Positions 26,418 to 50,497 of a DNA stretch of 64,000 nucleotides are shown one piece after another (position 1 is the first letter of the stretch; the number at the start of each line of letters is the position of its first letter). Location of the stretch: the NCBI GenBank assembly GCA_029959085.1, contig JARWIR010000018.1:496001-560000 (forward strand), given 5' to 3'. The stretch comes from Nemophila menziesii (taxonomy: Eukaryota; Streptophyta; Magnoliopsida; Boraginales; Hydrophyllaceae). The notes beneath the pieces are model-generated. The model did not search any database. It worked only from the letters and a program-made list of their open reading frames with translations, and was not told where the DNA came from. A program made the position numbers and the translations under genes.

Positions 26418-27565
26418 ACAAGTAAATTTGGAGTCTTGAGGTCTCGATGCACTATAACAGGGTTGCATGTGCGCTAGTACTTCATACCCTCTTGCAAATC
26501 GAGCGAAAATATATCATCAATACTATTTTTTTGTCAAAATATATAATCAATACTATAAAATCAAACAAAACATAGGAATAAGTTAAAAAGAAAAGGACCA
26601 AAGCATAGTAATTTAAACAGTGTAGGTTTAATTAAGTATCTTCCCACTTTTACAAACTGTATCAATCAAATAAACAAAAGGTATATTAAAATCTAGATTG
26701 GTCAATAATAAAAAAAATCAAGTAAATAAGTTCAATTACTAGAATAACTAAGAAAGATAAATCATGATAAAATTTTCTGAATATCATTATCAAACACCAT
26801 CAAATGGACAGGATCCCGTGAAGGATTGTTTCTTCCTTTTAAACATCTATGGTTGTTAAAATAGTAATCCACTATGCAACAAATTAAACAAAAATGAAAT
26901 AATCCATACAATATGTTGTATCAGTGGCTTCTGTAGCAGATTTTTGAGGCATAAGTGATGGCTCATTGTTAGACAAGTATTTCTAAATGTAATTTAGACC
27001 TTTATACATTTAATTCTTATTAGTGACCAACACACTGTTCTGTATAATTTTTATTCTCCTCTTTCTACTACACCAAGTTGAAAAGACATGGATACATATG
27101 TATGTTTTATCATATTTTAAATTAAAAAGTATTCACTTTTACCACTACTCGTACATCTAATTGAGTTGTATTCTATATTTCTTTTCAAAAAAATTAAATT
27201 CTACTAATAGTATACATATTACAGTTTTTCTATGTTACTCTTTCTCTGTATGAAAGTTTAGAATAAATAAAATATTAGATAATGGTTACAAATTTTTAAA
27301 ATTCATATGATAATCTAAACCTCCTATGGAGTCCGAAATCAATAAATGATATTTTTAACATTATTCTTAAATATTTTAAATTCTAAATATAATTTATATT
27401 TATGTCAGATTATAAATTAAATAAATTACTAAAAGTATAAAAATATATTTTTAGTCTAAAACTAACCTTGTAGAAAAATGTCATGACCAACGACCCACTT
27501 GTAAAATCATATTCCTCTACAAAATACTAATAAATTAAGAGCACAATTTCATCAAAATATTATGT
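26418..27565 (+). repeat. Partial internal duplication in U6, first pass
   Basis: The stretch beginning at TTGGAGTCTTGAGGTCTCGA and ending at AAAATATTATGTTTTA is followed immediately, from about 27566, by a second pass that starts again at GAGTAGATTTGAAGTCTTGAGG. The second pass has lost roughly 270-300 bp (between about 27978 and the CATTATACATTAAATT join) and carries the chromomethylase insert. The same arrangement is present in U7 and U8. Confidence 0.85.
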
Positions 27566-28058
27566 TTTATAAATGAGTAGATTTGAAGTCTTGAGGTCTC
27601 GATGCACTATAACAGGGTTGCATGTGTGTAGGTACTTCATACCCTTTGCCGCATCGAGAGCAGTTATTGTTCTTCTTTTTTATATGGTTATTTTCACCGG
27701 TCTTGCACATCGAGCATACGTATATCATCAATACTATTTTTTGTCAAAATATATCATCAATACTATAAAATCAAACAAAACATAAAACCAAAAAATAGGA
27801 ATAAGTTAAAAAGAAAAGGATCAAAGCGTAGTAATTTAAGTAGAGTAGGTTTACTTGAGTATCATCCCACTTTTATAATTTGTATTAATCAAATAAACAA
27901 AAGATATAGTAAAATATAGATTGGTCAATAATAAAAAAAATAATCAAGTAAATAAGTTCAATTACTAGACCATTATACATTAAATTCCTATTAGTGACCA
28001 ACACACTCTTCTGTATAATTTTTATTCTCCTCTTTCTACTACACCAAGTCGAAAAGAC

Positions 28059-28406
28059 ATGGATACATATGTATGTTTTTGTGAAGCCATAAATAATAAA
28101 ACAGTAATTACTGAAGGTAAAAATGAAGATAAAGAAAAGAGGTTAATGGATATTTACTCAGGATGTGGAGGTATGAGTACTGGTCTAGTACTTGGAGCTA
28201 ACCGTGGTGGAGTTAAATTAATCAGGAAATGGGCTATATATTTAAACCCACCCGCATTCAAGAGTTTGAAACTAAACCATCCAGAAACACATGTTAGAAA
28301 TAAATCAGCTGATGATTTACTTGCGTTACTGAAAGAATTGGAGAAGCTTTCGGAGTTGTTTAATCTAATTAGTGAAAAGGTGACTGAGGAGGAGGAAGAA
28401 AAATAA
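28059..28406 (+). pseudogene. Chromomethylase fragment, motif I segment (U6 left arm)
   Basis: 115 codons. The first seven (from ATGGATACATATGTATG) belong to the host repeat; CMT-like sequence starts at [25 protein letters not shown] is the SAM-binding motif I of plant CMT-type cytosine-5 methyltransferases, followed by the motif II area and [10 protein letters not shown]. An acidic run and a stop (TAA at 28404) come just before the place where CMT proteins begin the chromodomain. Positions conserved in the family are altered here (AIYLNPPAF where the U7 copy has AIDLNPHAC). Motifs IV (PC), VI, VIII, IX and X are absent, so it cannot methylate DNA. Confidence 0.82.
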
Positions 28407-28447
28407 GAGGCAGGAGATAGTGAAGTATTTTTTTTGGGTGTTTTACA

Positions 28448-28945
28448 GATGAAGAAGCTCGAAAGAGATGGCCTCAACGGTACGAAAAGAAAAAGGGAAA
28501 TAGTGACATCATTCAAGCAAAGAAGCACTACTCTCAAGGCTTAGTGGACACAGAGACTTTCAATCTCCATTATAATGCTTTCGTGAAGGTAGGAAAAGGA
28601 AAAGACAAAGATTACTACATTTGTAATGTAGTGGAAATGTTCGAATCAGTAGATGACTATCTTTTCTGCACGGCTTAGTGGTACTACCGAGCAAAAGATA
28701 CAGTCATTGATAAATGTGAAGATCACATACATGAGAAATGTGTGTTTCTCTCTGAGGTAAAAGATGATAATCCATTGGATTGTCTCATCAAGAAGCTAAA
28801 CATCGTTCATATACCTAATAACGTTGATTCAGAAAAGAAAGCTCAATTAATATCAGAATGTGACTTTTACTATGACAAGCTTTATTTACTACCCTACATT
28901 ACATTTATGAATGTTCTACCCAATAACTTATCCGAAAGTAATTAA
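28448..28945 (+). pseudogene. Chromomethylase BAH-domain fragment (U6 left arm)
   Basis: Begins just after an intron-like 3' end (GGGTGTTTTACAG), so it is a genomic rather than cDNA-derived copy. Translation gives EEARKRWPQRY, then AKKHYSQ, then the BAH core with VVEMFESVDDY, a YYRAKDTVI stretch, EKCVFLSEVKDDNPLDCL and CDFYYDKLYLLPY. These resemble the BAH domain that lies N-terminal to the catalytic domain in plant CMTs (a domain that in the family binds H3K9-methylated histone tails). A TAG at 28676-28678 replaces the glutamine codon of the other copies, and a TAA closes the frame at 28943. In a native CMT this domain precedes motif I; here it follows it. Confidence 0.82.
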
Positions 28946-28986
28946 ACAAAATCAATTGTTTCATCAGATGAAACAGTTGATTTTGT

Positions 28987-29442
28987 TTAATTACTCTCGG
29001 ATAAGTTATTGGGTAGAACATTCATAAATGTAATGTACGGTAGTAAATAAAGCTTGTCATAGTAAAAGTCACATTCCGATATTAATTGAGCTTTCTTTTC
29101 TGAATCAACGTTATTAGGTATATTAACGATGTTTAGCTTCTTGATGAGACAATCCAATGGATTGCCATCTTTTACCTCTAAGAGAAACACACATTTCTCA
29201 TGTATGTGATCTTCACATTTATCAATGACTGTATCTTTTGCTCGGTAGTACCACTGAGCCGTGCAGAAAAGATAGTCATCATAGTCATCTAGTGATTCGA
29301 ACATTTCTACTACATTACAATTGTAGTAATCTTCGTCTTTTCCTGCCTTCACAAAAGCATTATTAACTCCACCATGGTTAGCTCCAAGTACTAGACCAGT
29401 TTTAATACCTCCACATCCTGAGTAAATATTCATTAACGTCAT
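28987..29442 (-). pseudogene. Chromomethylase motif I-BAH fusion (U6 right arm)
   Basis: 151-codon open frame on the minus strand. It starts with NIYSGCGG and GLVLGANHGGV (motif I), then joins in frame to NNAFVKAGKDEDYYNC and the rest of the BAH domain, ending at the same position as the left arm. Relative to the left arm about 355 bp between these parts are deleted, with only 2-3 bases of microhomology (TAA) at the join. A 9-bp tandem duplication gives DDYDDY. U6-specific differences include an isoleucine after SGCGG and LLEVKDGNPLD. The frame is open in all three copies. It has no catalytic core, so any product could at most be a BAH-only protein. Whether it is translated is unknown. Confidence 0.78.
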
Positions 29443-32400
29443 CTATTTATTTGATTTATAATATTTTAAATTAAAAAGTATTCTCTTTTACCACTATTTG
29501 CATATCTAATTGAGTTGTATTCTCTATTTCTTTTCAAAAGAAAATTAAATTCTACTAATACTACACATATGATAGTTTTTCTATGTTAAGCTTTCTCTGT
29601 ATGAAAGTTTAGAATAAATGAAAATAGTAGATAATGGTTACAAATTTAAAAAATTCATATGATAAACTAAACTTCCTATAGAGTCGAAAATTAATAAATC
29701 ATATTTTTTACATTATTCTTACATATTTTAAACTCTAAATTTTATTTATATTTATGTCAAATTGTAAATTTAATAAATTAATAAATGTATAAAAACATAT
29801 TTTTAGTCTAAAACTTACCTTGTAGAAGAAATGTCAAAACCAATGACCACTTGTGAAATCACTTTTCTGTACAAAATGCTAATAAATTAAGATCACAATT
29901 TCATTAAAATATTATGTTTTAAGATCTAAATTGTTTCAAATAATGTATTTTCTGAAAATTAATATATAACAAATAAATAAGACTGCATTGTAGTTAATAA
30001 AAGGTGTGCAAATTATACACAAAAATATTAGGTAATACCAAACAAATACAATTAATACAAATCAATTGCCTGAAATTGATATTATAGGCTTTAAATCTTA
30101 GAGTTGGGCTTAGAAAAAAACATAAATAATATAATTTTCTAAAAGAAATATAAATCTAGATCTACAAATGAGATGAAAAAATCAATTTCTTCTTTAATTT
30201 CACCTCTAGTAATCTAAATATCTCTTCAAACTTTTTGTAGGTTTAATCATAAAATTGTTGAATGAAAAAATATTATTCGATTTTTGAAGATTGTAAGAAA
30301 TGAATAGACTAGGTGTATTATTATATTACTATGCTTGAGATAAATGAAAGCGGGATGAAATGAAAAACTAGGTCATAGAATTTTCTCTAAATATTATAAT
30401 ATTCTGTTATTTTATGGGCTGGGCCTATTAGTTTAAATATATATATATATAAATTAGACCATTTTCATTGGGCCATATACGTATGTATAAATTGTGGTTT
30501 TTTATTTATTCAAATATAATTCAAAATTTTAAAATAGTCTCGTGTTTTAATTATTTATGTGTATTCAAGGTGCAGGCATGTGTGTATATTATATAAAATC
30601 CATAATATTTTGCAAGTTGAATAAAAATATTTAATTTAACGATATAATTATTTTAGTATTTTTTAGCGAAGTAAGTTGATATAAATGTCTTAGTAAAACT
30701 AGGAAAAAATTAGTTCCTTTAGAATTTAGCTATCCATATATAAGTTATTTTCCGTGTGGTTGGGTCCTCAAACACATACTATAGTACCTTGATATAATTT
30801 TATAATCCAATAGAACAATGACCAATATCATGTATATATGTATGATGAAAAACTAATCTTTTGAAGGTTTAATATACTATTATTATAAAAATGTTATGAT
30901 AATATGAGTACATGGAGACAATTCCTACATAATTAATTTTAATTAATATTTATTAATCTAATCTTTATATTGGTAAAATTATCTATCCTTATTATGATTT
31001 GCCTAAAAAATATAATATTTATCTTTTGATACTTTAATCATTGATTATATTGAAAAATAAATAAATAAACTCCTTATTTGTTGAGATATCGGTTTTTATG
31101 AGAAATAATAAAGTCTTTGGGAAATGTATGACATGTTACGCATAGATTCATTGGAAAGAAGTGTACGAAAAATAAATAAATTTAACTTATTTAAAAATAT
31201 AAGTATGTATATGAAGATAAGGAGATATTGACAGGATGAGAACAAATGGTTATACTGTTGACTCGGACGATGAATTTATTAAGCAAGAAAAGAAAAAAAG
31301 AAAATGACACTTTTTCAGTTTATATTATCCTAGTTTTACATAAGGTTAGGGTTATGAAGAATGAATGGAATGAGACAGAGAAGGTTATTAAAATGATTAT
31401 AACAAAATAAAGATCTCTTAGTTTATAACAGATATGGAGAAATGACCAAATTGTTTAGAATAGTTTCCAAAATTGAAAGAGAAAATATCATACACGTATA
31501 GAATATATAATTATTTAAATAAAATTTACATCCAACAATAGCCCCATAATCAATGTTGAAACTAATATCTCTTCTTGGCCATCTATTACATTACACGTAA
31601 CTAGTAGCCAAATATAATTTATATGTGATAAATTCATTAAAATTTGTTAAAAGACAACTTGATTAAATGTTATCTATGTTGGAGAACAACAAATATAGTA
31701 TATGTGTATATTTGGGGAAATAACAATAATATTGTGATACAATAGGTTTCTAAATCGTGCAACTAGATAATTCATTTACAACGTACGACTAAGAAAAATG
31801 TTATGTCCTTGTGGGTTTATCTTAGTGTTAGTTCATCATAATGTCAAGGAAGTACATCACATATATACATTGGTGTACATGTAAGGATTGATTATAGTCA
31901 CATGGACAAACTATGGTAATCTACCAAAAATTAATTAAGATCTTTCTATAAGAACTAGGAGATAATATAGACGGATAAAAAAATAACCTTAATATATCCT
32001 ATTGTTGAGTTTACTTTTTAAATTGTAACATTAAGATTATAAATACAGTTAATACATTGAAAAGTATATAAAAGGACATTTAAAGGAAAGATAGACACAT
32101 ATATGTACATACAAAGTTTATTATACAACATTTATTTACTCAAATATTGAAAAATATTTAGTTGATGTGTGGAAAAATATAAAAATGACTTCATAACAAT
32201 AAATTACCCAAATTCGACAAAACTGGCTAATCACAATAATGTTAAATAAGTGAAATATTGTGCTTGATATATAACCATTGAAAACAACTTTAGATTCACA
32301 TATTGCCTATTTTTAAAACCCATAAATCTTAACCAACAATTCTTTATTAAACCATTAAACCACAAAACCCTATAATATATAACCATTTAAAACACATTTA

Positions 32401-33627
32401 GATTCACATATTAACCATTCTCGTTTAATATATATAAAAATAACATAAATAATATATAACTACTACTAATTTCTAACACAATCAACCATTTAATTCATTT
32501 TTTAGGCTAAAAAAGACTAACTCTTGTTAGTGTTAGTATATGTATACTTTTTGTGTTACATAGTTTTTGCATCATTATATTAAATTTATCAAGGTATACT
32601 TTTAATGTATATCTAGATTTGTATTAATAAATTTAGAAGTAGGAATATTAATTTACAGTTAATAAATATTTATAAATGGACCAAAGGCCATTACGATTTT
32701 ACTTCTTGTAGCTTACAAATATTATATATATATACAAGGATGATTTTTTTTAACAACTCATACACATAATATATAATACATACAATAAAATAACATTTGA
32801 TACTATATCAAAACCGATCCAACACACTTTTATATATTATTTTTATATAATTTATGTTTTTTAAACGCTAAAAGTTAAAAATAAAAATGTTCTCTCTGAT
32901 TAAGCTCCTCCTACATTTAATATAGTTTTTCTCTCTATTTATTTTCAAAATAAAATCGAATTGTACTAATAGTATATAACTTATAATATTTTATGTTATT
33001 TTTTCTTCACCCATATTTTGAATAAATAATATTAGTAAGTAATGACTACAAAAGTAGAAAAAAACCCACATCATATACTCCCGTCATATCGTTTGGGTCA
33101 TCAACAAATCATATACTTTAGTATATTCATTTCATAGTTAAGATGGATAATTACTAACACATTACATGAATTATTTCCAAAAATGTTATACCTCCCAAAT
33201 TCTAAACAATACCAATTGACCTCCCACGTTTAGTATACCCCGTCAGGTAATGAAAATCCAACAATACTACATGGATCCTACAGTTGTACACGCAATACAA
33301 ATGCACAATAAGCCAAAAAGAAATGGACAAGCACAAAACCACGGTCCATGAAAATAAATACAATATTGGATCCAACAATACATTCAATTTGGATCCTCCT
33401 TCTTCAATTTCATTTATGTCTGACAACAATAAAAATTGAAACCTAACATAATATATTTAAACATAAGGCTGATTTTGAATTATCTACCATTACATTTATG
33501 GGGTATATGAAATTGATTGAATGAGTGAGAATTATTGAAAAAGAACAAAAATATTTATTTAGCGTAGTTGTTGAAGAACTATTGTATCTAACCAAAATTA
33601 GTAACCTTAACATGTCAGTGTTTATAA

Positions 33628-34775
33628 ACAAGTAAATTTGGAGTCTTGAGGTCTCGATGCACTATAACAGGGTTGCAAGTGCGCTAGTACTTCATACCCT
33701 CTTGCAAATCGAGCGAAAATATATCATCAATACTATTTTTTTGTCAAAATATATAATCAATACTATAAAATCAAACAAAACATAGGAATAAGTTAAAAAG
33801 AAAAGGACCAAAGCATAGTAATTTAAACAGTGTAGGTTTAATTAAGTATCTTCCCACTTTTACAAACTGTATCAATCAAATAAACAAAAGGTATATTAAA
33901 ATCTAGATTGGTCAATAATAAAAAAAATCAAGTAAATAAGTTCAATTACTAGAATAACTAAGAAAGATAAATCATGATAAAATTTTCTGAATATCATTAT
34001 CAAACACCATCAAATGGACAGGATCCCGTGAAAGATTGTTTCTTCCTTTTAAACATCTATGGTTGTTAAAATAGTAATCCACTATGCAACAAATTAAACA
34101 AAAATGAAATATTCCATACAATATGTTGTATCAGTGGCTTCTGTAGCAGATTTTTGAGGCATAAGTGATGGCTCATTGTTAGACAAGTATTTCTAAATGT
34201 AATTTAGACCTTTATACATTTAATTCTTATTAGTGACCAACACACTGTTCTGTATAATTTTTATTCTCCTCTTTCTACTACACCAAGTTGAAAAGACATG
34301 GATACATATGTATGTTTTATCATATTTTAAATTAAAAAGTATTCACTTTTACCACTACTCGTACATCTAATTGAGTTGTATTCTCTATTTCTTTTCAAAA
34401 AAATTAAATTCTACTAATAGTATAAATATTACAGTTTTTCTATGTTACTCTTTCTCTGTATGAAAGTTTAGAATAAATAAAATATTAGATAATGGTTACA
34501 AATTTTTAAAATTCATATGACAATCTAAACCTCCTATGGAGTCCGAAATCAATAAATGATATTTTTAACATTATTCTTACATATTTTAAATTCTAAATAT
34601 AATTTATATTTATGTCAGATTATAAATTTAATAAATTACTAAAAGTATAAAAATATATTTTTAGTCTAAAACTAACCTTGTAGAAAAATGTCATGACCAA
34701 CGACCCACTTGTAAAATCATATTCCTCTACAAAATACTAATAAATTAAGAGCACAATTTCATCAAAATATTATGT
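33628..34775 (+). repeat. Partial internal duplication in U7, first pass
   Basis: Same partial duplication as in U6: the first pass ends near AAAATATTATGTTTTA and is followed by a second pass from GAGTAGATTTGAAGTC, which leads into the chromomethylase insert. Confidence 0.85.
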
Positions 34776-35268
34776 TTTATAAATGAGTAGATTTGAAGTC
34801 TTGAGGTCTCGATGCACTATAACAGGGTTGCATGTGTGTAGGTACTTCATACCCTTTGCCGCATCGAGAGCAGTTATTGTTCTTCTTTTTTATATGGTTA
34901 TTTTCACCGGGCTTGCACATCGAGCATACGTATATCATCAATACTATTTTTTGTCAAAATATATCATCAATACTATAAAATCAAACAAAACATAAAACCA
35001 AAAAATAGGAATAAGTTAAAAAGAAAAGGATCAAAGCGTAGTAATTTAAGCAGAGTAGGTTTACTTGAGTATCATCCCACTTTTATAATTTGTATCAATC
35101 AAATAAACAAAAGATATAGTAAAATATAGATTGGTCAATAATAAAAAAAATAATCAAGTAAATAAGTTCAATTACTAGACAATTATACATTTAATTCCTA
35201 TTAGTGACCAACACACTCTTCTGTATAATTTTTATTCTCCTCTTTCTACTACACCAAGTCGAAAAGAC

Positions 35269-35616
35269 ATGGATACATATGTATGTTTTTGTGAAGCCAT
35301 AAATAATAAAACAGTAATTACTGAAGGTAAAAATGAAGATAAAGAAAAGAGGTTAATGGATATTTACTCAGGATGTGGAGGTATGAGTACTGGTCTAGTA
35401 CTTGGAGCTAACCGTGGTGGAGTTAAATTAATCAGGAAATGGGCTATAGATTTAAACCCACACGCATGCAAGAGTTTGAAACTAAACCATCCAGAAACAC
35501 AGGTTAGAAATAAATCAGCTGAAGATTTACTTGCGTTACTGAAAGAATTGGAGAAGCTTTCGGAGTTGTTTAATCTAATTGGTGAAAAGGTGACTGAGGA
35601 GGAGGAAGAAAAATAA
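35269..35616 (+). pseudogene. Chromomethylase fragment, motif I segment (U7 left arm)
   Basis: 115 codons, the least altered of the three. After host-repeat codons comes the linker CEAINNKT, motif [18 protein letters not shown], then [20 protein letters not shown] and the [14 protein letters not shown] helix that match the plant CMT pattern well. An acidic run ends at TAA (35614). In the same frame after that stop the sequence reads EAGDSEVF, which fits the entry to the CMT chromodomain. It then breaks off into an intron end near 35640. The DNA therefore corresponds to one or two CMT exons, cut at the chromodomain boundary. Confidence 0.85.
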
Positions 35617-35657
35617 GAGGCAGGAGATAGTGAAGTATTTTTTTTGGGTGTTTTACA

Positions 35658-36155
35658 GATGAAGAAGCTCGAAAGAGATGGCCTCAACGGTACAAAAAGA
35701 AAAAGGGAAATAGTGACATCATTCAAGCAAAGAAGCACTACTCTCAAGGCTTAGTGGACACAGAGACTTTCAATCTCCATGATAATACTTTCGTGAAGGT
35801 AGGAAAAGGAAAAGACAAAGATTACTACATTTGTAATGTAGTGGAAATGTTCGAATCAGTAGATGACTATCTTTTCTGCACGGCTCAGTGTTACTACCGA
35901 GCAAAAGATACAGTCATTGATAAATGTGAAAATCAAATACATGAGAAATGTGTGTTTCTCTCTGAGGTAAAAGATGACAATCCATTGGATTGTCTCATCA
36001 AGAAGTTAAACATCGTTCATATACCTAATAACGTTGATTCAGAAAAGAAAGCTCAATTAATATCGGAATGTGACTTTTACTATGACAAGCTTTATTTACT
36101 ACCGTACATTACATTTATGAATGTTCTACCCAATAACTTATCCGAGAGTAATTAA
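35658..36155 (+). pseudogene. Chromomethylase BAH-domain fragment (U7 left arm)
   Basis: Open for 165 codons from the 3' splice-site-like TTTTACAG to TAA. It has no in-frame stop, unlike the U6 and U8 counterparts, so it is the best-preserved BAH copy. It contains EEARKRWPQRY, HYSQGLVDTETFNLHDN, the VVEMFESVDDY core, YYRAKDTVID, FLSEVKDDNPLDCL and CDFYYDKLYLLPYITFMN. It ends LSESN-stop; past the stop the same frame reads TKSTVSSECEAIN, the linker expected before motif I in a full CMT. No own promoter or start codon is evident. Confidence 0.84.
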
Positions 36156-36171
36156 ACAAAATCAACTGTTT

Positions 36172-36275
36172 CATCTGAATGTGAAGCCATAAATATTAAA
36201 ACAGAAATTACTCATTTTCACCTTCAGTAAATTCTGTTTTATTAATTATGGCTTCACATTTAGACGAAACAGTTG
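36172..36275. repeat. Central stem-loop of the U7 inverted repeat
   Basis: The tip of the hairpin: CATCTGAATGTGAAGCCATA on the left pairs with TATGGCTTCACATTTAGACG on the right, then an AT-rich stem containing AAAACAGAA/TTCTGTTTT, closed by a 15-nt loop rich in C and T. The linker GAAGCCATAAAT occurs three times around this locus: before motif I at 35294, and on both sides of the loop. Confidence 0.85.
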
Positions 36276-36282
36276 ATTTTGT

Positions 36283-36738
36283 TTAATTACTTTCGGATAA
36301 GTTATTGGGTAGAACATTCATAAATGTAATGTAGGGTAGTAAATAAAGCTTGTCATAGTAAAAGTCACATTCCGATATTAATTGAGCTTTCTTTTTTGAA
36401 TCAACGTTATTAGGTATATGAATGATGTTTAGCTTCTTGATGAGACAATCCAATGGATTATCATCTTTTACCTCTGAGAGAAACACACATTTCTCATGTA
36501 TGTGATCTTCACATTTATCAATGACTGTATCTTTTGCTCGGTAGTACCACTGAGCCGTGCAGAAAAGATAGTCATCATAGTCATCTACTGATTCGAACAT
36601 TTCTACTACATTACAATTGTAGTAATCTTCGTCTTTTCCTGCCTTCACAAAAGCATTATTAACTCCACCATGGTTAGCTCCAAGTACTATACCAGATTTC
36701 ATACCTCCACATCCTGAGTAAATATTCATTAACGTCAT
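36283..36738 (-). pseudogene. Chromomethylase motif I-BAH fusion (U7 right arm)
   Basis: 151-codon open frame on the minus strand, same fusion point (GGV to NNAFVK) and same DDYDDY duplication as in U6 and U8, showing that the deletion arose once before the unit was amplified. U7-specific changes include GGMKSGIVLG and SKKKAQL. The C-terminal codons carry the GAAAG variant shared with the left arm of U6. It lacks all catalytic motifs beyond motif I. Confidence 0.78.
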
Positions 36739-39700
36739 CTATTTATTTGATTTATAATATTTTAAATTAAAGAGTATTCTCTTTTACCACTATTTGCATA
36801 TCTAATTGAGTTGTATTCTCTATTTCTTTTCAAAAGAAAATTAAATTCTACTAATACTACACATATGATAGTTTTTCTATGTTAAGCTTTCTCTGTATGA
36901 AAGTTTAGAATAAATGAAAACAGTAGATAATGGTTACGAATTTAAAAAATTCATATGATAAACTAAACTTCCTATAGAGTCGAAAATTAATAAATCATAT
37001 TTTTTACATTATTCTTACATATTTTAAACTCTAAATTTTATTTATATTTTTGTCAAATTGTAAAATTAATAAATGTATAAAAACATATTTTTAGTCTAAA
37101 ACTTACCTTGTAGAAGAAATGTCAAAACCAATGACCACTTGTGAAATCACTTTCCTGTACAAAATGCTAATAAATTAAGATCACGATTTCATTAAAATAT
37201 TATATTTTAAGATCTAAATTGTTCCAAATAATGTATTTTCTGAAAATTAATATATAACAAATAAAAAAGATTGCATTGTAGTTAATAAAAGGTGTGCAAA
37301 TTATACACAAAAATATTAGGTAATACCAAACAAATACAATTAATACAAATCAATTACCTGAAAATGATATTATAGGCTTTAAATCATAGATTTGGGCTTA
37401 GAAAAAAACATAAATAATATAATTTTCTAAAAGAAATATAAATCTAGATCTACAAATGAGATGAAAAAATCAATTTTTTTTTAATTTCACCTCTAGTAAT
37501 CTAAATATTTCTTCAAACTTTTTGTAGGTTTAATCACAAAATTGTTGAATGAAAAAAAATTATTCAATTTTTGGAGATTGTAAGAAATGAATAGACGAGG
37601 TGTATGATTATATTACGGCTTGAGATAAATGAAAGCGTGATGAAATGAAAAACTAGGTCATAGAATTTTCTCTAAATATTATAATATTCTGTTATTTTAT
37701 GGGCTGGGCCTATTAGTTTAAATATATATATAAAAATTAAACCATTTTCATTGGGCCATATACGTATGTATAAATTGTGGTTTTTTATTTATTCAAATAT
37801 AATTTAAAATTTAAAGTAGTCTCGTGTTTTAATTATTTATGTGTATCCAAGGTGCAGGCATTTGTGTATATTATATAAAATCCATAATATTTTGCAAATT
37901 GAATAAAAATATTTAATTTAACGATATAATTATTTTAGTATTTGTTAGCGAAGTAAGTTGATATAAATGTCTTAGTAAAACTAGGAAAAATTAGTTCCTT
38001 TAGAATTTAGCTATCCATATATAAGTTATTTTCTATGTGGTTGGAGCCTCAAACACATACTATAGTACCTTGATATAATTTTATAATCCAATAGAACAAT
38101 GACCAATATCACGTATATATGTATGATGAAAAACTAATCTTTTGAAGGTTTAATATACTATTATTATAAAAATGTTATGATAATATGAGTACATGGAGAC
38201 AATTCCTAAATAATTAATTTTAATTAATATTTATTAATCTAATCTTTATATTGGTAAAATTATCTATCCTTATTATGATTAGCCTAAAAAATATAATATT
38301 TATCTTTTGGTACTTTAATCATTAATTATATTGAAAAATAAATAAATAAACTCCTTATTTGTTGAGATATCGGTTTTTATGCGAAATAATAAAGTCTTTG
38401 GGAAATGTATGACATGTTACGCATAGATTCATTGGAAAGAAGTGTACGAAAAATAAATAAATTTAACTTATTTAAAAATATAAGTATGTATATGAAGATA
38501 AGGAGATATTGACAGGATGAGAACAAATGGTTACACTGTTGACTCGGACGATGAATTTATTAAGCAAGAAAAGAAAAAAAGAAAATGACACTTTTTCAGT
38601 TTATATTATCCTAGTTTTACATAAGGTTAGGGTTATTAAGAATGAATAGAATGAGCTAGATAAGGTTATTAAAATGATTATAACAAAATAAAGATCTCTT
38701 AGTTTATAACTGATATGGAGAAATGACCAAATTGTTTAGAATAGTTTCCAAAATTGAAAGAGAAAATATCATACAAGTATTAAATATATAATTATTTAAA
38801 TAAAATTTACATTCAACAATAGCCCCATAATCAATGTTGAAACTAATATCTCTTCTTGGCCATCTATTACATTACACGTAACTAGTAACCAAATATAATT
38901 TATATTTGATAAATTCATTAAAATTTGTTAAAAGACAACTTGATTAAATGTTATCTATGTTGGAGAACAACAAATATAGTATATGTGTATAGTTGGGGAA
39001 ATAACAATAATATTGTGATACAATAGGTTTCTAAATCGTGCAACTAGATAATTCATTTACAACGTACGACTAAGAAAAATGTTATGTCCTTGTAGGTTTA
39101 TCTTAGTGTTAGTTCATCATAATGTCAAGGAAGTACATCACATATATACATTGGTGTACATGTAAGGATTGATTATAGTCACATGGACAAACTATGGTAA
39201 TCTACCAAAAATTAATTAAGATCTTTCTGTAATAACTAGGAGATAATATAGACGGATAAAAAATAACCTTAATATATCCTTTTGTTGAGTTTACTTTTTA
39301 AATTGTAACATTAAGATTATAAATACAGTTAATACATTGAAAAGTATATAAAAGGACATTTAAAGGAAATATAGACACATATATGTACATACAAAGTTTA
39401 TTATACAACATTTATTTACTCAAATATTGAAAAATATTTAGTTGATGTGTGGAAAAATATAAAAATGACTTCATAACAATAAATTACCCAAATTCGGCAA
39501 AACTGGCTAATCACAATAATGTTAAATAAGTGAAATATTGTGCTTGATATATAACCATTGAAAACAACTTTAGATTCACATATTGCCTATTTTTAAAACC
39601 CATAAATCTTAACCAACAATTCTTTATTAAACCATTAAACCACAAAACCCTATATTTATAACCATTTAAAACACATTTAGATTCACATATTAACCATTGT

Positions 39701-40907
39701 CGTTTAATATATATAAAAATAACATAAATAATATATAACTACTACTAATTTCTAACATAATCAACCATTTAATTCATTTTTAGCCTCAAAAAGACTAACT
39801 CTTGTTAGTGTTAGTATATGTATACTTTTTGTGTTACATAGTTTTTGCATCATTATATTAAATTTATACGGTATAATTTTAATGTATATCTATATTTGTA
39901 TTAATAAATTTAGAAGTAGGAATATTAATTTACAGTTAATTAATATTTATAAATGGACCAAAGGTCATTATGAATTTACTTCTTGTAGCTTACAAATATT
40001 ATATATATATATATATAAAACGATGATTTTTTTTAACAACTCATACACATAATATATAATACATACAATAAAATAACATTTGATACTATATCAAAACCAA
40101 TCCAACACACTTTTATATATTATTTTTATATAATTTATGTTTTTAAAACGCTAAAAGTTAAAAATAAAACTGTTCTCTCTGATAAAGCTCCTCCTACATT
40201 TAATAGAGTTTTTCTCTCTATTTATTTTCAAAATAAAATCGAATTGTACTAATAGTATATAACTTATAATATTTTATGTTATTTTTTCTTTACCCATATT
40301 TTGAAAAAATAATATTAGTAAGTAATGACTACAAAAGTAGAAAAAACCCACATCATATACTCCCGTCATATCGTTAGGGTCATCAACAAATCATAAACTT
40401 TAGTATATTCAGTTCATAGTTAAGATGGATAACTACTAACACATTCCATGAAGTATTTCCAAAAATGTTATACCTCTCAAATTCTAAACAATACCAATTG
40501 ACCTCCCACGTTTAGTATACCCCGTCAGGTAATGAAAATCCAACAATACTACATAGATCCTACAGTTGTACACGCAATACAAATGCACAATAAGCCAAAA
40601 AAAATGGACAACCACAAAACCACGGTCGATGAAAATAAATACAATATTGGATCCAACAATACATTCAATTTGGATCCTCCTTCTTCAATTTCATTTATGG
40701 CTGACAACAATAAAAATTGAAACCTAACATAATATATTTAAACATAAGGCCGATTTTGAATTATCTACCATTACATTTATGGGGTATATGAAATTGATGG
40801 AATGAGTGAGAATTATTGAAAAAGAACAAAAATATTTATTTAGCGTAGTTGTTGAAGAACTATTGTATCTAACCAAAATTAGTAACCTTGACATGTCAGT
40901 GTTTATA

Positions 40908-42067
40908 AACAAGTAAATTTGGAGTCTTGAGGTCTCGATGCACTATAACAGGGTTGCATGTGCGCTGGTACTTCATACCCTCTTGCAAATCGAGCGCAAA
41001 TATATCATCGACACTATTTTTTTGTCAAAATATATAATCAATACTATAAAATCAAACAAATAATAAACCAAAAAAAAGAATAAGTTAAAAAGAAAAGGAC
41101 CAAAGCATAGTAATTTAAACAGTGTAGGTTTAATTATGTATCTTCCTACTTTTACAAACTGTATCAATCAAATAAACAAAAGGTATATTAAAATCTAGAT
41201 TGGTCAATAATAAAAAAAATCAAGTAAATAAGTTCAATTACTAGACTAACTAAGAAAGATAAATCATGATAAAATTTTCTAAATATCATTATCAAACACC
41301 ATCAAATGGACATGATCCCGTGAAGGATTGTTTCTTCCTTTTAAACATCTATGGTTGTTAAAATAGTAATCCACTATGCAACAAATTAAACAAAAATGAA
41401 ATGTTCCATACAATATGTTGTATCAGTGGATTCTGTAGCAGATTTTTGAGGCATAAGCGATGGCTCATTGTTAGACAAGTATTTCTAAAGGTAATTTAGA
41501 CCTTTATACATTTAATTCTTATTAGTGACCAACACACTGTTCTGTATAATTTTTATTCTCCTCTTTCTACTACACCAAGTTGAAAAGACATGGATACATA
41601 TGTATTTTTTATCATATTTTAAATTAAAAAGTATTCACTTTTACCACTACTCTACATCTAATTGAGTTGTATTCTCTATTTCTTTTCAAAAAAATTAAAT
41701 TCTACTAATAGTATACATATTACAGTTTTTCTATGTTACTCTTTCTCTGTATGAAAGTTTAGAATAAATAAGATATTAGATAATGGTTACAAATTTTTAA
41801 AATTCATATGATAATCTAAACCTCCTATGGAGTCCGAAATCAATAAATGATATTTTTAACATTATTCTTACATATTTTAAACTCTAAATATAATTTATAT
41901 TTATGTCAAATTATAAATTTAATAAATTAATAAAAGTATAAAAATATATTTTTAGTCTAAAACTAACCTTGTAGAAAAATGTCATGACCAACAACCCACT
42001 TGTAAAATCATATTCCTCTACAAAATACTAATGAATTAAGATCACAATTTCATCAAAATATTATGTT
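40908..42067 (+). repeat. Partial internal duplication in U8, first pass
   Basis: Same arrangement as U6 and U7. The join to the second pass lies near ATTATGTTTTATAAATGAG at about 42060-42078. Confidence 0.82.
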
Positions 42068-42558
42068 TTATAAATGAGTAGATTTGAAGTCTTGAGGTCT
42101 CGATGCACTATAACAGGGTTCCATGTGTGTAGGTACTTCATACCCTTTGCCGCATCGAGAGCAGTTATTGTTCTTCTTTTTTATATTATTATTTTTACCG
42201 GGCTTGCACATTGAGCATACGTATATCATCAATACTATTTTTTGTCAAAATATATCATCAAAACTATAAAATCAAACAAAACATAAAACCAAAAAATAGG
42301 AATAAGTTAAAAAGAAAAGGATCAAAGCGTAGTAATTTAAGCAGAGTAGGTTTACTTGAGTATCATCCCACTTTTATAATTTGTATCAATCAAATAAACA
42401 AAAGATATAGTAAAATATAGATTGGTCAATAATAAAAAAATAATCAAGTAAATAAGTTCAATTACTAGTCCATTATACATTTAATTCCTATTAGTGACCA
42501 ACACACTTTTCTGTATAATTTTTATTCTCCTCTTTCTACTACACCAAGTCGAAAAGAC

Positions 42559-42899
42559 ATGGATACATATGTATGTTTTTGTGAAGCCATAAATAATAAA
42601 ACAGTAATTACTGAAGGTAAAAATGAAGATAAAGAAAAGAGGTTAATGGATATTTACTTGGAGGTATGAGTACTGGTCTAGTACTTGGAGCTAACCGTGG
42701 TGGAGTTAAATTAATCACGAAATGGGCTATAGATTTAAACCCATACGCATGCAATAGTTTGAAACTAAACCATCCAGAAACACATGTTAGAAATAAATCA
42801 GCTAAAGATTTACTTGCGTTACTGAAAGAATTGGAGAAGCTTTCGGAGTTGTTTAATCTAATTGGTGAAAAGGTGACTGAGGAGGAGGAAGAAAAATAA
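42559..42899 (+). pseudogene. Chromomethylase motif I segment, frameshifted (U8 left arm)
   Basis: Same segment as in U6/U7 but with a 7-bp deletion (CAGGATG) near 42658, which removes the Ser-Gly-Cys of motif I and shifts the frame. Downstream of it the open frame (from 42666) still reads [22 protein letters not shown] and [10 protein letters not shown]. The lesion destroys the signature of the SAM-binding loop and shows there is no protein-level constraint on this arm. Confidence 0.82.
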
Positions 42900-42940
42900 G
42901 AGGCAGGAGATAGTGAAGTATTTTGTTTGGGTGTTTTACA

Positions 42941-43438
42941 GATGAATAAGCTCGAAAGAGATGGCCTCAACGGTACGAAAAGAATAAGGGAAATAGTGAC
43001 ATCATTCAAGCAAAGAAGCACTACTCTCAAGGCTTAGTGGACACAGAGACATTAAATCTCCATGATAATGCTTTCGTGAAGGTAGGAAAAGGAAAAGACA
43101 AAGATTACTACATTTGTAATGTAATGTAAATGTTCGAATCAGTAGATGACTATCTTTTCTGCACGGCTCAGTGGTACTACCGAGCAAAAGATACAGTCAT
43201 TGATAAATGTGAAAATCACATACATGAGAAATGTGTGTTTCTCTCAGAGGTAAAAGATGACAATCCATTGGATTGTCTCATCAAGAAGTTAAACATCGTT
43301 CATATACCCAATAACGTTGATTCAGAAAAGAAAGCTCAATTAATATCGGAATGTGACTTTTACTATGACAAGCTTTATTTACTACCCTACATTACATTTA
43401 TGAATGTTCTACCCAATAACTTATCCGAGAGTAATTAA
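42941..43438 (+). pseudogene. Chromomethylase BAH-domain fragment with stops (U8 left arm)
   Basis: Collinear with the U7 fragment over 498 bp, but a TAA at 42947-42949 replaces the third codon after the splice-like CAG, and a second TAA at 43127-43129 interrupts the core just before the MFESVDDY stretch. The remaining frame from 43130 covers the C-terminal two thirds of the BAH (MFESVDDYLFCTAQWYYRAK onward). It is a pseudogene by two independent nonsense changes. Confidence 0.83.
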
Positions 43439-43526
43439 ACAAAATCAACTGTTTCATCTGAATGTGAAGCGTAGTTTCTGTTTTAATATTTATGGCTTCA
43501 CATTCAGATGAAACAGTTGATTTCGT

Positions 43527-43982
43527 TTAATTACTCTCGGATAAGTTATTGGGTAGAACATTCATAAATGTAATGTAGGGTAGTAAATAAAGCTTGTCAT
43601 AGTAAAAGTCACATTCCGATATTAATTGAGCTTTCTTTTCTGAATCAACGTTATTAGGTATATGAATGATGTTTAGCTTCTTGATGAGACAATCCAATTG
43701 ATTATCATCTTTTACCTCTGAGAGAAACACACATTTCTCATGTATGTGATCTTCACATTTATCAATGACTGTATCTTTTGCTCGGTAGTACCACTGAGCC
43801 GTGCTTAAAAGATAGTCATCATAGTCATCTACTGATTCGAACATTTCTACTACATTACAATTGTAGTAATCTTCGTCTTTTCCTGCCTTCACAAAAGCAT
43901 TATTAACTCCACCATGGTTAGCTCCAAGTACTAGACCAGTTTTCATACCTCCACATCCTGAGTAAATATTCATTAACGTCAT
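43527..43982 (-). pseudogene. Chromomethylase motif I-BAH fusion (U8 right arm)
   Basis: 151-codon minus-strand frame with the same in-frame fusion and 9-bp duplication as in U6 and U7. U8-specific changes include LLSTAQWYY (others LFCTAQWYY) and DNQLDC (others NPLDC). All three right arms stay open although left arms in two units are broken; with so few copies this may be chance. Confidence 0.78.
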
Positions 43983-45080
43983 CTATTTAGTTGATTTATA
44001 ATATTTTAAATTAAAAAGTATTCTCTTTTACCACTATTTGCATATCTAATTGAGTTGTATTCTCTATTTCTTTTCAAAAGAAAATTAAATTCTACTAATA
44101 CTACACATATGATAGTTTTTCTATGTTAAGCTTTCTCTGTATGAAAGTTTAGAATAAATGAAAATAGTAGATAATGGTTACAAATTTAAAAAATTCATAT
44201 GATAAACTAAACTTCCTATAGAGTCGAAAATTAATAAATCATATTTTTTACATTATTCTTACATATTTTAAACTCTAAATTTTATTTATATTTATGTCAA
44301 ATTGTAAATTTAATAAATTAATAAATGTATAAAAACATATTTTTAGTCTAAAACTTACCTTGTAGAAGAAATGTCAAAACCAACGACCACTTGTGAAATC
44401 ATTTTCCTGTACAAAATGCTAATAAATTAAGATCACAATTTCATTAAAATATTATGTTTTAAGATCTAAATTGTTTCAAATAATGTATTTTCTGAAAATT
44501 AATATATAACAAATAAAAAAGATTGCATTATAGTTAATAAAAGGTGTGCAAATTATACACAAAAATATTAGGTAATACCAAACAAATACAATTAATACAA
44601 ATCAATTACCTGAAATTGATATTATAGGCTTTAAATCGTAGATTTGGACTTAGAAAAAAACATAAATAATATAATTTTCTAAAAGAAATATAAATCTAGA
44701 TCTACAAATGAGATGAAAAAATAATTTTTTTTTTAATTTCACCTCTAGTAATCTAAATACTTCTTCAAACTTTTTGTAGGTTTAATCACAAAATTGTTGA
44801 ATGAAAAAAAATTATTCAATTTTTGGAGATTGTAAGAAATGAATAGACGAGGTGTATGAATATATTACGGCTTGAGATAAATGAAAGCGTGATGAAATGA
44901 AAAACTAGGTAATAGAATTTTCTCTAAATATTATAATATTCTGTTGTTTTATGGGCTGGGCCTATTAGTTTAAATATATATATATAAAAATTAGACCATT
45001 TTTATTGGACGTATGTATAAATTGTGGTTTTTTATCTATTCAAATATAATTTAAAATTTTAAAATTTTATTGGACCATTT

Positions 45081-45697
45081 GTGTTTAATCAGCGAGGTTT
45101 TAATCTGATACTTCAATCAAAAAACAAAGGTTTGTATTGTATTTGATGTTTCTTTTTTTCATTTACTTTGTATTTATGCACAAATATATGTATAAATTTG
45201 TTTTTAAATTTGTTTTACAATTAATGTCTCCCACTTTTTACTTTTATTTAATATATGTTGGAATGATATTAAATGACAATCTTGATACATCTTTTTGAAT
45301 TCTTTTGTGTATATTGCTGGTAATAATTATTACATATATAAATACTTAAATATATGTAAAAACCTCAATATTTTGTTGTTGAATTAATGTGAAATATTAA
45401 CCTTTATTGTATGATTTTCGTTGTAAACTTTAATTTGGTTGAGTTTTGAATTTGAATAGCTATGTGATGTAAGTATTTGTTATCTTACACTATTGATAAT
45501 TCATATTATTTTACACGTCAAAAATACTCCATTTTCTTTAACTTATTTCCAATTCTATTACCTTTGGTTGTTTGGGTGTTTCTGTATATATTTGTTATTC
45601 ATACAATACTGCTAATTTAATTGTATGTGAATAGTTACCCTTATCATTTGGTATAGATTGATAATATAATTATGTATGTCATGTCAGTAAATGACAT
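45081..45697 (+). repeat. Direct repeat, left copy (5' part of EMF1-like locus)
   Basis: 617 bp starting GTGTTTAATCAGCGAGG and ending ATGTCAGTAAATGACATT, closely matched by 51711-52275. It is AT-rich without an open frame. It contains about 53 bp (near 45414-45466) missing from the right copy, between short GAT/TGAT homologies. It lacks the TG...CA ends of an LTR. Confidence 0.88.
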
Positions 45698-46424
45698 TTT
45701 ATTTAATTTATTTTATTTGAACAAATTATTTAAATTTGCTTGAGGCAGTTTTGGTTCTAGTTTGTGAAACACCTTACTCTTTCATTGGATTTCAGAAGCC
45801 TGTGTAATGGTAATATTATTAGTTTTATTGTATATTTTTGTCCCAGATTTTGCAAAGGTTGACCATGTAATGATTACATGTGTGCTTCATATTTACGTCA
45901 TTTAATTTGAAGCTTAAAAATAAGATCAACGTTCTATTTTCATTTCTTTATTTCAAATTTATCATACACTTACAAATTTACTCCATGTGTTTCTAAATAA
46001 ATGTCCATTTAAATATTTAAATAGTTTTAATATAAAGATAAAAATTTTGTTACAATTATGTTATATAAGTATCTTGATATTGTAAATACGTGTTGTAACA
46101 TAAATTTTAATATTTTAATATAGATAGTAGCATAAATGTTTTTAATAATAATTTATTTAAAGGACATTTATTTACTAACAAAGTGAGCATATTTGTCTTG
46201 TTAGGCTAAAGTGTACCTTTCAATGCATGCCTTTTGAAATATTAAAATCAATCTAAATAAATGAATAAAATTTATTTATTATTATTTATCTATTGATTTT
46301 CCATTACTTAATCTCAAGCTTGATAAAAAGACCAACAAGCTATTATATGTTTGGTTTTCATACTCAATTTTTTCTATAAAACTATAAATTTATATTTAAC
46401 ATTAAATTCTTCTGACCTTTAGAT

Positions 46425-47483
46425 ATGGACAACAAGATTGAAACCGGAAGATGTCAACATTTCACTATTCGGTAAGATTAATTTTATTTATCCATTTTAT
46501 CATTTTTTATCACGAATATAGTTAAATTTTTTTCTCATATATGTTTTGTGGTTGTTATTCATTAGTTAATGTTTTTTTCTTGTAATGTATAATTAATTTG
46601 TCGCCATATATGTACGGTTCATATTTATTTTCTCTAATACTTCATAGTATGCTGAAGTTGATGCAATTGTATAATGTAATGAGCATAATTGAATAAGTCT
46701 ACAAGTAGTATAATCAATATATAAAAATATTAGCAGTGTCAGATTAAATTAGATTGGACTTTTTATGAATTTTTAAGGATTTGAACGTTTTAGTTGAGTA
46801 TCCAGTATATAAGTGGGCTACTTAGATATTTAACATTAAATTTGGCAGGCTTAAAAATATTAAATTGTTTCATAATAGTATATATCTTGGACTACCATAT
46901 GAAATAAAAATCAATTATTTTATGTGATACACTACTTAAAATTTTATAGAAATATTCTTCATTTTAATGTAGTGGATATGTAGCCGAGATGAGACACAAT
47001 AATCCAAAGTTTGATGAATTGTTTGGGCAACTTCCTCCGCTCAGTGCTCCTAGGCATAGATATTGGCGCTGTAAAATGGAGGGTGGGGCAAGATGTAGGC
47101 TCAATGAAGCATCCGAAAGTTCATTTGGTGAAGCTACAATAACCCAACATGAGACGCAGCCGAATGGTAAATTGATAGTTGGTGATAAGGAAGATGTGGT
47201 GTCAAGGGGTTCAGAAAAAAATTCATCTTCATTCAGGCAAGCTGTCAAATCCCGTCAGATAAAAAATCCCCTGAAAAAAAGGAAGATGTCAAATCCTCTA
47301 AGCTTAAAAATGAGGGATGCCAATGCCACCAAAAAGGAAAGTCTGGATAGATTGTGCTTAGAGAGACAAAATATATTAAGTGGTTCTCCTAATTTAGAGG
47401 AGGAATCCTCTGATGGATCTAATGATAACAATAAAGAAGATGTTACAACTGTTGGTAGTTATTTAAGTGATGCTTCAACCTAA
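46425..47483 (+). CDS. EMF1-like protein, short two-exon gene or gene fragment
   Basis: Exon 1 46425-46471 (ATG to a CG|GTAAG donor) and exon 2 46973-47483 (after TTTAATGTAG|T, ending in TAA). The splice restores an arginine codon across a GT-AG phase-2 intron, giving 185 aa. The joined N-terminus reads GRCQHFTIRGYVAEMR. This and the later LPPLSAPRHRYWRC stretch resemble the N-terminal region of plant EMBRYONIC FLOWER 1 proteins (Polycomb-associated repressors of flower genes). A basic KNPLKKRKMS cluster (possible nuclear signal) and an acidic, serine-rich tail follow. Family members are many hundreds of residues longer, so this is a truncated copy or short paralogue. The promoter expected further upstream is replaced by unit U8. 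The similarity is from memory of the family, not a search. Confidence 0.5.
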
Positions 47484-49555: not shown

Positions 49556-50048
49556 AGGGAGAAGTAGGTTTTGCGATGAGGAGCTTTCGTGAGAGATGGC
49601 TAAGAAATGAATGTTCACTTAAAATTATAAACATAAGATAAGGGTAGTTTATGAAAATATTATGTCCAAAGCCAGTATTATTTCTTGTTATGTGTTCTCG
49701 AGGAAGTTCTAAGAAGAAGAGTGTCAGCAAGCGTTACTAGCCCATGATTGTAAAAAGGAGGGTTGGATATATTTTGCGTATTCTCCAAATGAAAGATCGA
49801 CATCATTACTTTCGACTCCCAAGAACAATTATCCTAATAAAGAACAAACAATTATGTGATCCAGCCGTGTTTATTCAAACTACTAATGATAAATGCCTGT
49901 AATACTTCTTTGATATCTTGACTAATTAACTCTCTCTTCCTCATCTATCCTATTCTTACAAGATGAAGATTTTTGTTCTTTAAACCTTTCTCTATCTTAG
50001 GCTTACAATATTTTTGTAACTTATGGAAAGAGCCTCTTTGCAGTCAAA

Positions 50049-50085
<37 letters not shown>

Positions 50086-50308: not shown

Positions 50309-50497
50309 ACGTAATAACTCTCGAGTTACTATACTGCGTTTCTTTGACCTGTTGAAGGCTTCATTTTCTTAAGATAGTAACAAGTGATCCCGACAACTGT
50401 ATTTATAATTTGTCAAAACTTTCTTGTTCTTTACATATGGTGCATTACAGTTATATTATGTTTTACATATATACAGAGTGTTGTGATTGGTGTCTTG

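Follow-up and report, generated by a model that had tools for sequence, protein, structure and literature searches.

Why should a plant genome carry long inverted repeats of DNA-methylation gene sequence, and could they silence the genes that they resemble? This question is raised by a 64,000-nucleotide stretch from Nemophila menziesii (C89:496001-560000 in a source genome of 1.517 Gb; hereafter the window), in which an earlier note had described hairpins of chromomethylase (CMT) sequence in the repeat units U6, U7 and U8, and had proposed that they may silence homologous genes in trans. Our analyses make it probable that they belong to a pseudogene hairpin satellite derived from a CMT3b-type cDNA, the siRNAs of which, if any, would act mainly in cis.

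Mapping of the arms, together with Pfam, PDB and protein matches, confirmed that each of the three units bears an inverted-repeat insert of chromomethylase motif I and BAH sequence, 1.38-1.46 kb in size, composed as follows:

about 28080-29456, no strand: U6 CMT-cDNA hairpin insert (bounds from empty-site comparison and CMT homology)
about 35290-36752, no strand: U7 CMT-cDNA hairpin insert (bounds from empty-site comparison)
about 42581-43996, no strand: U8 CMT-cDNA hairpin insert (bounds from empty-site comparison)
28572-28965, plus strand: U6 left stem arm, BAH
28967-29363, minus strand: U6 right stem arm, BAH, inverted; loop almost nil
35782-36178, plus strand: U7 left stem arm
36263-36659, minus strand: U7 right stem arm; inter-arm linker of about 84 nt, partly palindromic
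43065-43461, plus strand: U8 left stem arm
43495-43903, minus strand: U8 right stem arm
28129-28216, plus strand: U6 left motif-I outer arm, 88 nt; partner 29363-29450 (90%)
29363-29450, minus strand: U6 right motif-I outer arm, 88 nt; partner 28129-28216
28217-28571, plus strand: U6 left-only part, the remainder of the motif-I block as far as the beginning of the chromodomain, fused to the BAH start

The U6 left-only part has no counterpart in the right arm. U7 has equivalents of the U6 outer arms, and the U8 version is shorter (51 nt at 94%). The identity of the palindrome within each of the three units is 92.2, 90.9 and 90.8%, and the U6 arms are 92.6-93.3% identical to the opposite U7 arms. 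All four minus-strand matches among the 157 listed self-matches of more than 150 nt in the window fall in the inserts, a strand distribution that excludes a chance origin of the inverted repeats. The hairpin geometry described before, with long BAH arms and motif-I outer arms, also held: the RNAs of the three inserts, on both strands, are predicted to fold with an MFE of -797.5 to -852.4, far below the shuffled-control means of -298.0, -313.0 and -304.6 (8 copies per insert; base shuffles of the plus strand only, in which dinucleotide composition is not kept), and the longest unbroken predicted helix measures 92 bp in U6, 125 bp in U7 and 172 bp in U8.

The arms correspond to CMT3-type chromomethylases. 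Pfam BAH matches the insert at 1.2e-10; the PDB matches, named 'DNA (cytosine-5)-methyltransferase 1', are 4fsx (which we take to be maize ZMET2) and its kin, with BAH scoring 9e-32 to 9.7e-32 and motif I 7.8e-24; and each of the 120 CMT3-type proteins tested matches the BAH part in U6, U7 and U8 alike. Three intron-containing CMT genes, all without in-frame stops, were found in the genome: CMT3b (L019, contig C324 at about 2,216,929-2,221,669), the closest to the insert, with 19 modelled introns and one frameshift called near its weakly aligned N-terminus; CMT3a (L017, contig C264 at about 26,264,146-26,267,993), a conserved CMT3 with 18 introns; and L018, also with 18. The SH-aLRT support is 100 for the inserts with CMT3b, 97 on adding CMT3a and 99 on adding Lithospermum. 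A Cuscuta source, considered after a first tree, found no support, since the genes of the genome itself fall with Lithospermum, making Boraginales the likely order. The insert is collinear with spliced CMT3b and, since six CMT3b introns are absent from the stretches covered unbroken, it derives from a cDNA. An intron remnant ahead of the BAH exon was considered and dropped once the CMT3b gene model was read. At the insert junctions we found neither a poly(A) tail nor a clear target-site duplication, only a short shared T run, and the insert lacks the build of a DNA transposon or MITE, its first 50 nt or so being unpaired at the other end. The genome yielded no founder gene (dS of about 0.35-0.7 relative to CMT3b): this gene could have disappeared, be absent from the assembly or have gone unscored, or else a working retrogene may once have existed in the intron-less copy itself. 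Both the absent founder and the absent insertion hallmarks count against the explanation that we favour.

Within the AT-rich tandem unit, which is 4.9 kb long, the insert occupies a single site, and 11 empty insertion sites are present in the window. In U6-U8 a segment of the array is duplicated and the insert adjoins its second copy, as seen in U6:

27081-27135, plus strand: empty insertion site in U6, first copy of the duplicated segment (likewise at 34291 and 41584)
27565-28079, plus strand: left flank of the U6 insert, second copy of the array segment duplicated in U6-U8

Unit 1 is matched twice here, by 24532-27569 and by 27565-27972, and the two matches overlap in unit 1. The unit steps in the window are 4.7-7.3 kb, except one interrupted by a foreign element (45064-52275), which gave two weak Pfam matches below the cut-off. 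As in macrosatellites, a kilobase unit is repeated head to tail: unit matches on C89 extend from 79,882 to 1,215,575 (about 1.1 Mb, continuity of the span not being implied), and others lie on C111 and C143. Thus the count of three hairpin loci given earlier stands for the window and fails genome-wide, where the left junction occurs at 151 places (104 + 47) at no more than two mismatches, with 0 for the control; right-junction and empty-site patterns cross-match each other, so that these counts rest on the left junction. Its exact form occurs at 47 or more places on C89, with 24 of the 46 steps between those listed at 7.1-7.4 kb, and the left junction recurs 25 times in the 12 regions examined, the window included. 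When the U7 left arm was compared with the genome, the best 40 of 198 candidates, on C89, C111 and C143, all had 97-100% identity and aligned over the whole query or nearly so; the inverted right arm (91-93%) adjoins 38 of these 40 scored copies. Nothing was found by scanning the window for Rfam families and tRNAs, by searching plasmids with 28000-29500 or by looking in viral contigs for one exact junction pattern, and the ORF at 46968-47483 has no homologue at E <= 0.001. A transposon identity of the unit was likewise tried and rejected, as six scanned ORFs, three of them from the unit, gave no Pfam match above the cut-off.

The inserts of the window contain only BAH and motif I, with stops in the left arms, and lack the open catalytic frame of a functional chromomethylase. 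Intron-less catalytic parts (residues about 286-856) exist on C340, C287 and C26, and the dN/dS of the arms against CMT3b is low (0.09-0.18). Both observations would suit a mobile or satellite element with its own working chromomethylase, of which the window copies were dead, internally deleted derivatives. We regard such an element as quite unlikely: all eight array catalytic copies examined are broken, with 1-5 stops and 2-7 frameshifts each, the three unit ORFs scanned hold no Pfam domain, and recent capture of a functional gene accounts for the same numbers. Among six array catalytic copies (15 pairs) dN/dS rises to 0.63-0.86; low against CMT3b and high among the copies, these values show that a functional chromomethylase was captured and afterwards decayed, the catalytic copies having changed in a near-neutral manner after a constrained past.

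We propose for the pseudogene satellite that a single insertion would have placed a CMT3b-type chromomethylase cDNA in one site of the AT-rich tandem repeat, where it presumably became permuted and palindromic and may then have been amplified along with the repeat on several contigs. If transcribed, the insert RNA would fold to a hairpin whose unbroken helices measure 92-172 bp, and Dicer-like enzymes would cut it to siRNAs of 21-24 nt. These would act chiefly in cis, on the arrays themselves and on sister CMT-cDNA arrays; the mRNA of the paralogue CMT3b would be a secondary target, and the conserved CMT3a would escape.

Whether the arms are too diverged from every intact chromomethylase gene to guide silencing, a point raised by the earlier note, is answered differently by the three genes tested. 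The inserts show, as expected of an inverted-repeat silencing locus, an inverted repeat of a host gene, and the homologue in range is CMT3b, neither CMT3a nor L018. Long matches to CMT3b have 83-86% identity, and the three inserts share with it 55, 62 and 55 perfect 21-mers and 293, 363 and 329 of 2548 sites at no more than two mismatches. CMT3a shares 0 perfect 21-mers with the window inserts, and 48, 61 and 27 of 2461 sites at the looser threshold; the controls, L018 and reversed CMT3b, gave 0 against the window inserts in the 21-mer test. Because soybean CHS7/8 are silenced by genes 82% alike, CMT3b appears a credible target of insert siRNAs and CMT3a a poor one. With only CMT3b in range, the suppression of CHG methylation suggested earlier is doubtful in its general form, and a damping of CMT3b is possible; overall, the trans-silencing interpretation is partly supported by these sequence comparisons.

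An active trans-silencer would go further: the transcribed arrays would yield 21-22 nt siRNAs that cut the mRNA of CMT3b (earlier, of the founder) and lower CHG methylation, perhaps the array's own. The CMT3b matches with their blank controls, the soybean precedent and the palindrome present in 38 of 40 scored copies speak for it, as do the case of Arabidopsis Cvi, where the VIM4-VIM2 inverted repeat lowers a methylation-pathway gene, and the repression of Arabidopsis CMT3 by miR823. We nevertheless judge it unlikely, given the lack of perfect CMT3a 21-mers and the pattern of arm divergence described below. No miR823-like site was found in the inserts: in each of the six strand tests the best candidate had 9 mismatches over 21 positions. 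Very improbable, in our estimate, is an anti-silencing satellite, in which the captured hairpin would have spread by weakening CHG methylation through siRNAs against CMT3b-type genes, perhaps driving founder loss and CMT3b divergence, CMT3a having escaped by sequence divergence.

Several known systems resemble the Nemophila array in part. The soybean I locus (GmIRCHS) is also an inverted repeat of a gene-derived pseudogene (pseudoCHS), and the targets that it silences in trans share only some 82% identity with its trigger genes, but siRNAs and phenotype were demonstrated there, whereas any siRNAs of the Nemophila hairpins are putative and the hairpins form a multi-copy satellite of a DNA-methylation gene. 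In Arabidopsis Cvi-0, VIM4-VIM2 is an inverted repeat of DNA-methylation pathway genes whose siRNAs lower a related gene; it consists of two real genes at one locus, in contrast to the Nemophila hairpin, which is decayed and intron-less and exists in 40 or more nearly identical copies. The Arabidopsis PAI inverted repeat and maize Mu killer likewise silence homologues; each is reportedly a single locus, with its RNA proven and its targets almost identical to it. MIRNA genes born of inverted duplication are gene-derived foldbacks, CMT3 being already a small-RNA target via miR823; the arms of the Nemophila insert, devoid of such a site, greatly exceed a miRNA foldback in length. Long arrays of a kilobase-scale unit are shared with plant macrosatellites and tandem arrays derived from genes, but the fixed-site palindromic insert of a host methyltransferase cDNA is not. 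The titles and abstract openings examined, with subscription journals mostly outside the search, mentioned no satellite or hairpin array derived from a chromomethylase. Should the hairpins be expressed, satellite DNA would carry an RNAi trigger against part of the satellite-silencing machinery, with an internal control built in, one paralogue lying inside siRNA range and one outside. Even a silent array offers a clear example of a cDNA for a DNA methyltransferase that has been multiplied as palindromes in long arrays, from which one could study the turning of gene fragments into satellites and the persistence of long palindromes. Its more than 100 decoy copies can also distort the counting of chromomethylases and the mapping of small RNAs in genomes of this kind.

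Is the pairing maintained? Mean arm divergence is 4.2% inside one unit and 3.9% between units, and the between-unit divergence of the insert resembles that of its flanks; thus there is no sign that pairing is kept by selection. The same figures would suit inert heterochromatic junk, the palindromes being a by-product of repeat expansion with no RNA activity, as would palindromes made of other CMT parts, 10 of the 17 outside the window being of the linker/motif-I part and 3 of the C-terminal part. This reading is possible, if somewhat unlikely: small RNAs are known to arise from local inverted duplications in plants, and a hint of coding constraint fits poorly with it. The BAH arms have a dN/dS of 0.31-0.35 within the window and of 0.29-0.78 against other arrays (U7R, 0.29-0.56), except two C287b pairs at 1.39-1.40, which rest on two synonymous changes. 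Uncorrected p-values for constraint are 0.007 (U7R-C134m), 0.019 (U7L-U7R) and 0.06-0.38 (four other tested pairs), and of the 24 changes that distinguish the six arms, 8 are synonymous against 4.4 expected (two-sided p 0.07). There is thus a hint that the BAH arms are more constrained than expected under pure decay, which counts against the pseudogene satellite that we favour, and a hint that coding constraint persists in the right arms, where a frame is open in all three units (also at 36283-36738 and 43527-43982):

28987-29442, minus strand: U6 right-arm ORF, 151 aa, a short motif-I piece fused to BAH

The BAH domain of CMT3 reads H3K9me2, and a BAH-only protein of 151 aa could compete with CMT3-type enzymes for H3K9me2 nucleosomes, the active product being a peptide and not siRNA. 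The open frames and the low right-arm dN/dS (0.09-0.12 against CMT3b, besides the U7R values) would agree with such a protein. We hold it to be extremely improbable: three recent copies could stay open by chance, the changes are few and the p-values uncorrected, and the frame is without the start of the BAH region, the CMT3b match beginning near residue 138.

Of 60 positions that do not vary in 120 CMT3-type proteins, 9-10 are altered in the left arms, compared with no more than 5 of 62 in any single reference; an estimate of about 7% decay from these residues was withdrawn because CMT3b shares four of the differences (read by eye). The centre of the palindrome may have flipped between U6 and U7: three inner sites have opposite left/right phase in the two units, while five outer SNPs and two indels agree, a pattern that is suggestive (Fisher 0.008, for sites picked after viewing the data).

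Our results show that the chromomethylase-derived palindromes lying in units U6, U7 and U8 of the AT-rich array are real, as the earlier note had described them, and also numerous. The inserts measure about 1377 (U6), 1463 (U7) and 1416 nt (U8); in the left arm linker and motif I come before BAH, while the right arm consists of BAH in inverted orientation plus a short piece of motif I. Within each unit the two sides of the palindrome are 92.2, 90.9 and 90.8% identical, respectively. The predicted folds of all three lie far below base-shuffled controls (eight plus-strand shuffles per insert), and of 157 self-matches longer than 150 nt the 4 on the minus strand all fall within these inserts. The insertion site occurs in the window in 11 empty and 3 filled copies, with one of each in U6, U7 and U8. 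By Pfam match the arms are BAH; their sequence matches chromomethylase-type structures and CMT3 of many eudicots (of 2295 candidate proteins 679 pass E <= 0.001, the best 120 being listed). In a first tree of 123 rows the arms sit on a long branch, grouping with Lithospermum (97/94) near Solanales (89/88).

In a genome search with the left arm, the best 40 of 198 first-look candidates, on contigs C89 (which holds the window), C111 and C143, were all 97-100% identical, and 38 of these 40 best copies adjoin an inverted arm (91-93%); the array unit gave 452 candidates, of which 40 were scored. Local palindromes with arms of at least 200 nt number 20 in 240 kb of array and window sequence, 3 of them in the window; the 17 outside comprise 4 of BAH size (C134, C287a, C26a, C330), 10 of linker and motif I (351-354 nt) and 3 of the C-terminal part, and C287b and the 10-kb window flanks yielded none.

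The assembly (1,516,695,462 bases in 361 contigs; the window is C89:496001-560000) has 97 places matching PF00145 (123 of 154 candidates scored), many of them on C340 at 11.30-11.62 Mb, C287, C134 and C26. Three intron-containing genes lack in-frame stops; the names CMT3a and CMT3b are ours, and since the family search gives a lower bound a further gene is possible.

Intron-containing chromomethylase genes, from spliced alignments
CMT3a: L017, C264; conserved gene
CMT3b: L019, C324, ~2,216,929-2,221,669; diverged second CMT3 gene; model without start
L018: C318; more distant chromomethylase gene; model without start

In the CMT3b model one frameshift is called, close to the N-terminal end, where the alignment is weak. 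CMT3b and CMT3a share 65% amino-acid identity (dN/dS ~0.11, dS saturated). More distant, repeated chromomethylase-like sequence lies at C1 124.293-124.312 Mb and C329 44.418-44.449 Mb (L004, L020-L023), with ~30-55% amino-acid identity to P0104 and a spacing of ~6.2 kb on C1. In a quick tree with the genome's own genes added, the inserts join CMT3b (SH-aLRT 100), then CMT3a (97) and then Lithospermum (99).

Introns break the match between genomic CMT3b and the insert into blocks of 49-143 nt, whereas spliced CMT3b gives runs of up to 521 nt; six introns, placed from the genomic matches and the gene model, fall within insert-covered stretches. Across 12 examined regions the left junction of the insert occurs 25 times in all; C287a, C287b and both 10-kb window flanks, which are among these regions, have 0.

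Left-junction occurrences by region
window: 3
C340: 9
C134: 5
C287c: 2
C26a-c: 5
C330: 1

Genome-wide it occurs at 151 places, part of them individually listed, at up to 2 mismatches (reversed control, 0). From this we infer a single founding insertion that would have spread together with the array unit. Some inserts on C340, C287 and C26 retain most of the catalytic half (residues ~286-856), which precedes the BAH part in permuted order, and the window insert appears to derive from this form by internal deletion. Long but broken intron-less catalytic halves adjoin the same AT-rich unit at L009-L013, L025, L027, L029, L030 and L033 (C340 11.30-11.62 Mb; C287, C26). The origin of the structure is largely explained, and we think it rather probable that a CMT3b-type cDNA became palindromic within the AT-rich unit and was amplified, with any siRNAs acting mainly in cis.

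With stop-containing codons omitted, which lowers the ratios slightly, dN/dS against CMT3b is 0.09-0.18 for the arms (dS 0.54-0.73) and 0.12-0.22 for the array catalytic copies; six of the latter compared among themselves (15 pairs) give 0.63-0.86 (dS 0.04-0.11), and three pairs tested show no departure from neutrality (p 0.09-0.22). The ancestor was therefore a normally constrained chromomethylase until shortly before the arrays radiated. All 8 catalytic copies tested are broken. Judged by these distances the founder is neither present-day CMT3b nor present-day CMT3a, and the lower-bound family search did not find it.

That the inserts are inert heterochromatic junk seems to us unlikely, although part of the evidence agrees with it. 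Arms differ within units at 16, 17 and 16 of 386 positions (U6-U8) and between units at 12-18 of 386, so pairing is not preferentially kept; between U6 and U7 the insert parts differ by 1.6-3.2%, the upstream flank by 0.65-1.0% and the downstream flank by 2.5%, so the insert diverges no slower than its surroundings. This contrast between flanks, around 28080 and 35290, suggests that recombination had its breakpoint in the palindrome or close to it. Against pure decay, the 24 arm changes include 8 synonymous ones (4.4 expected), with 14 non-synonymous and 2 stops (two-sided p 0.07); dN/dS is 0.31-0.35 among window arms and 0.29-0.78 against other arrays, except for two C287b pairs (1.39-1.40); and of the 6 arm pairs tested, 2 give p < 0.05 (0.007 and 0.019, uncorrected and not independent). 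These signs, together with a 151-aa right-arm frame open in 3/3 units, would also suit a short BAH-only peptide, a product that we regard as very improbable; in our assessment they make both the palindromic-cDNA reading and the junk reading slightly less likely. The one direct comparison of BAH with catalytic differences showed no contrast (Fisher p 1.0).

The earlier note proposed that small RNAs from the hairpins could tune or suppress CHG methylation, unless the arms were too diverged from every CMT gene. They are not so for CMT3b: matches of at least 300 nt to its spliced sequence are 83.5-86.2% identical, with 55 (U6), 62 (U7) and 55 (U8) perfect 21-mers; allowing 2 mismatches, 293, 363 and 329 of the 2548 sites match. 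They are so for CMT3a (69-81% identity, in pieces; 0 perfect 21-mers; 48, 61 and 27 of 2461 sites at up to 2 mismatches) and for L018, which like reversed CMT3b gave 0 sites. Pooling all palindromes with arms of at least 200 nt gives 116/2548 perfect sites in CMT3b and 9/2461 in CMT3a, these 9 all from C340. Sister array copies are far better matched, with 246-270 of 2846 21-mers perfect in one copy on C340. According to the account in PMC3804491, CHS7/8 are silenced by siRNAs of CHS genes only 82% alike, mainly via mismatched siRNAs, and by this precedent CMT3b is in silencing range; CMT3a is probably outside it. A regulatory role is possible, though unproven, for one paralogue, CMT3b.

CMT3 dosage matters, as described for miR823 in Arabidopsis embryos (PMC8352596). 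The closest systems known to work are GmIRCHS (PMC13051633), the VIM4-VIM2 inverted repeat (PMC13213937) and foldback MIRNA genes (PMC1790633). The Nemophila array differs from these in scale and form, its own feature being a methyltransferase cDNA made palindromic and multiplied as a satellite.

Segments 1-8533 and 55355-63930 are duplicated (98.1% identical). Both contain a 450-nt insert (~4694-5144 and 60059-60506) that ends in poly(A) and has TTGAAACTAA flanking both sides, so a higher-order duplication is present in the array; the insert resembles a 5'-truncated LINE. A 7.2 kb foreign stretch at 45064-52275, with no Pfam match above cut-off in three scanned ORFs, has LTR-like direct repeats of ~620 bp at its ends (87.6% identical), and the array is shifted out of register by ~2 kb between its two sides.
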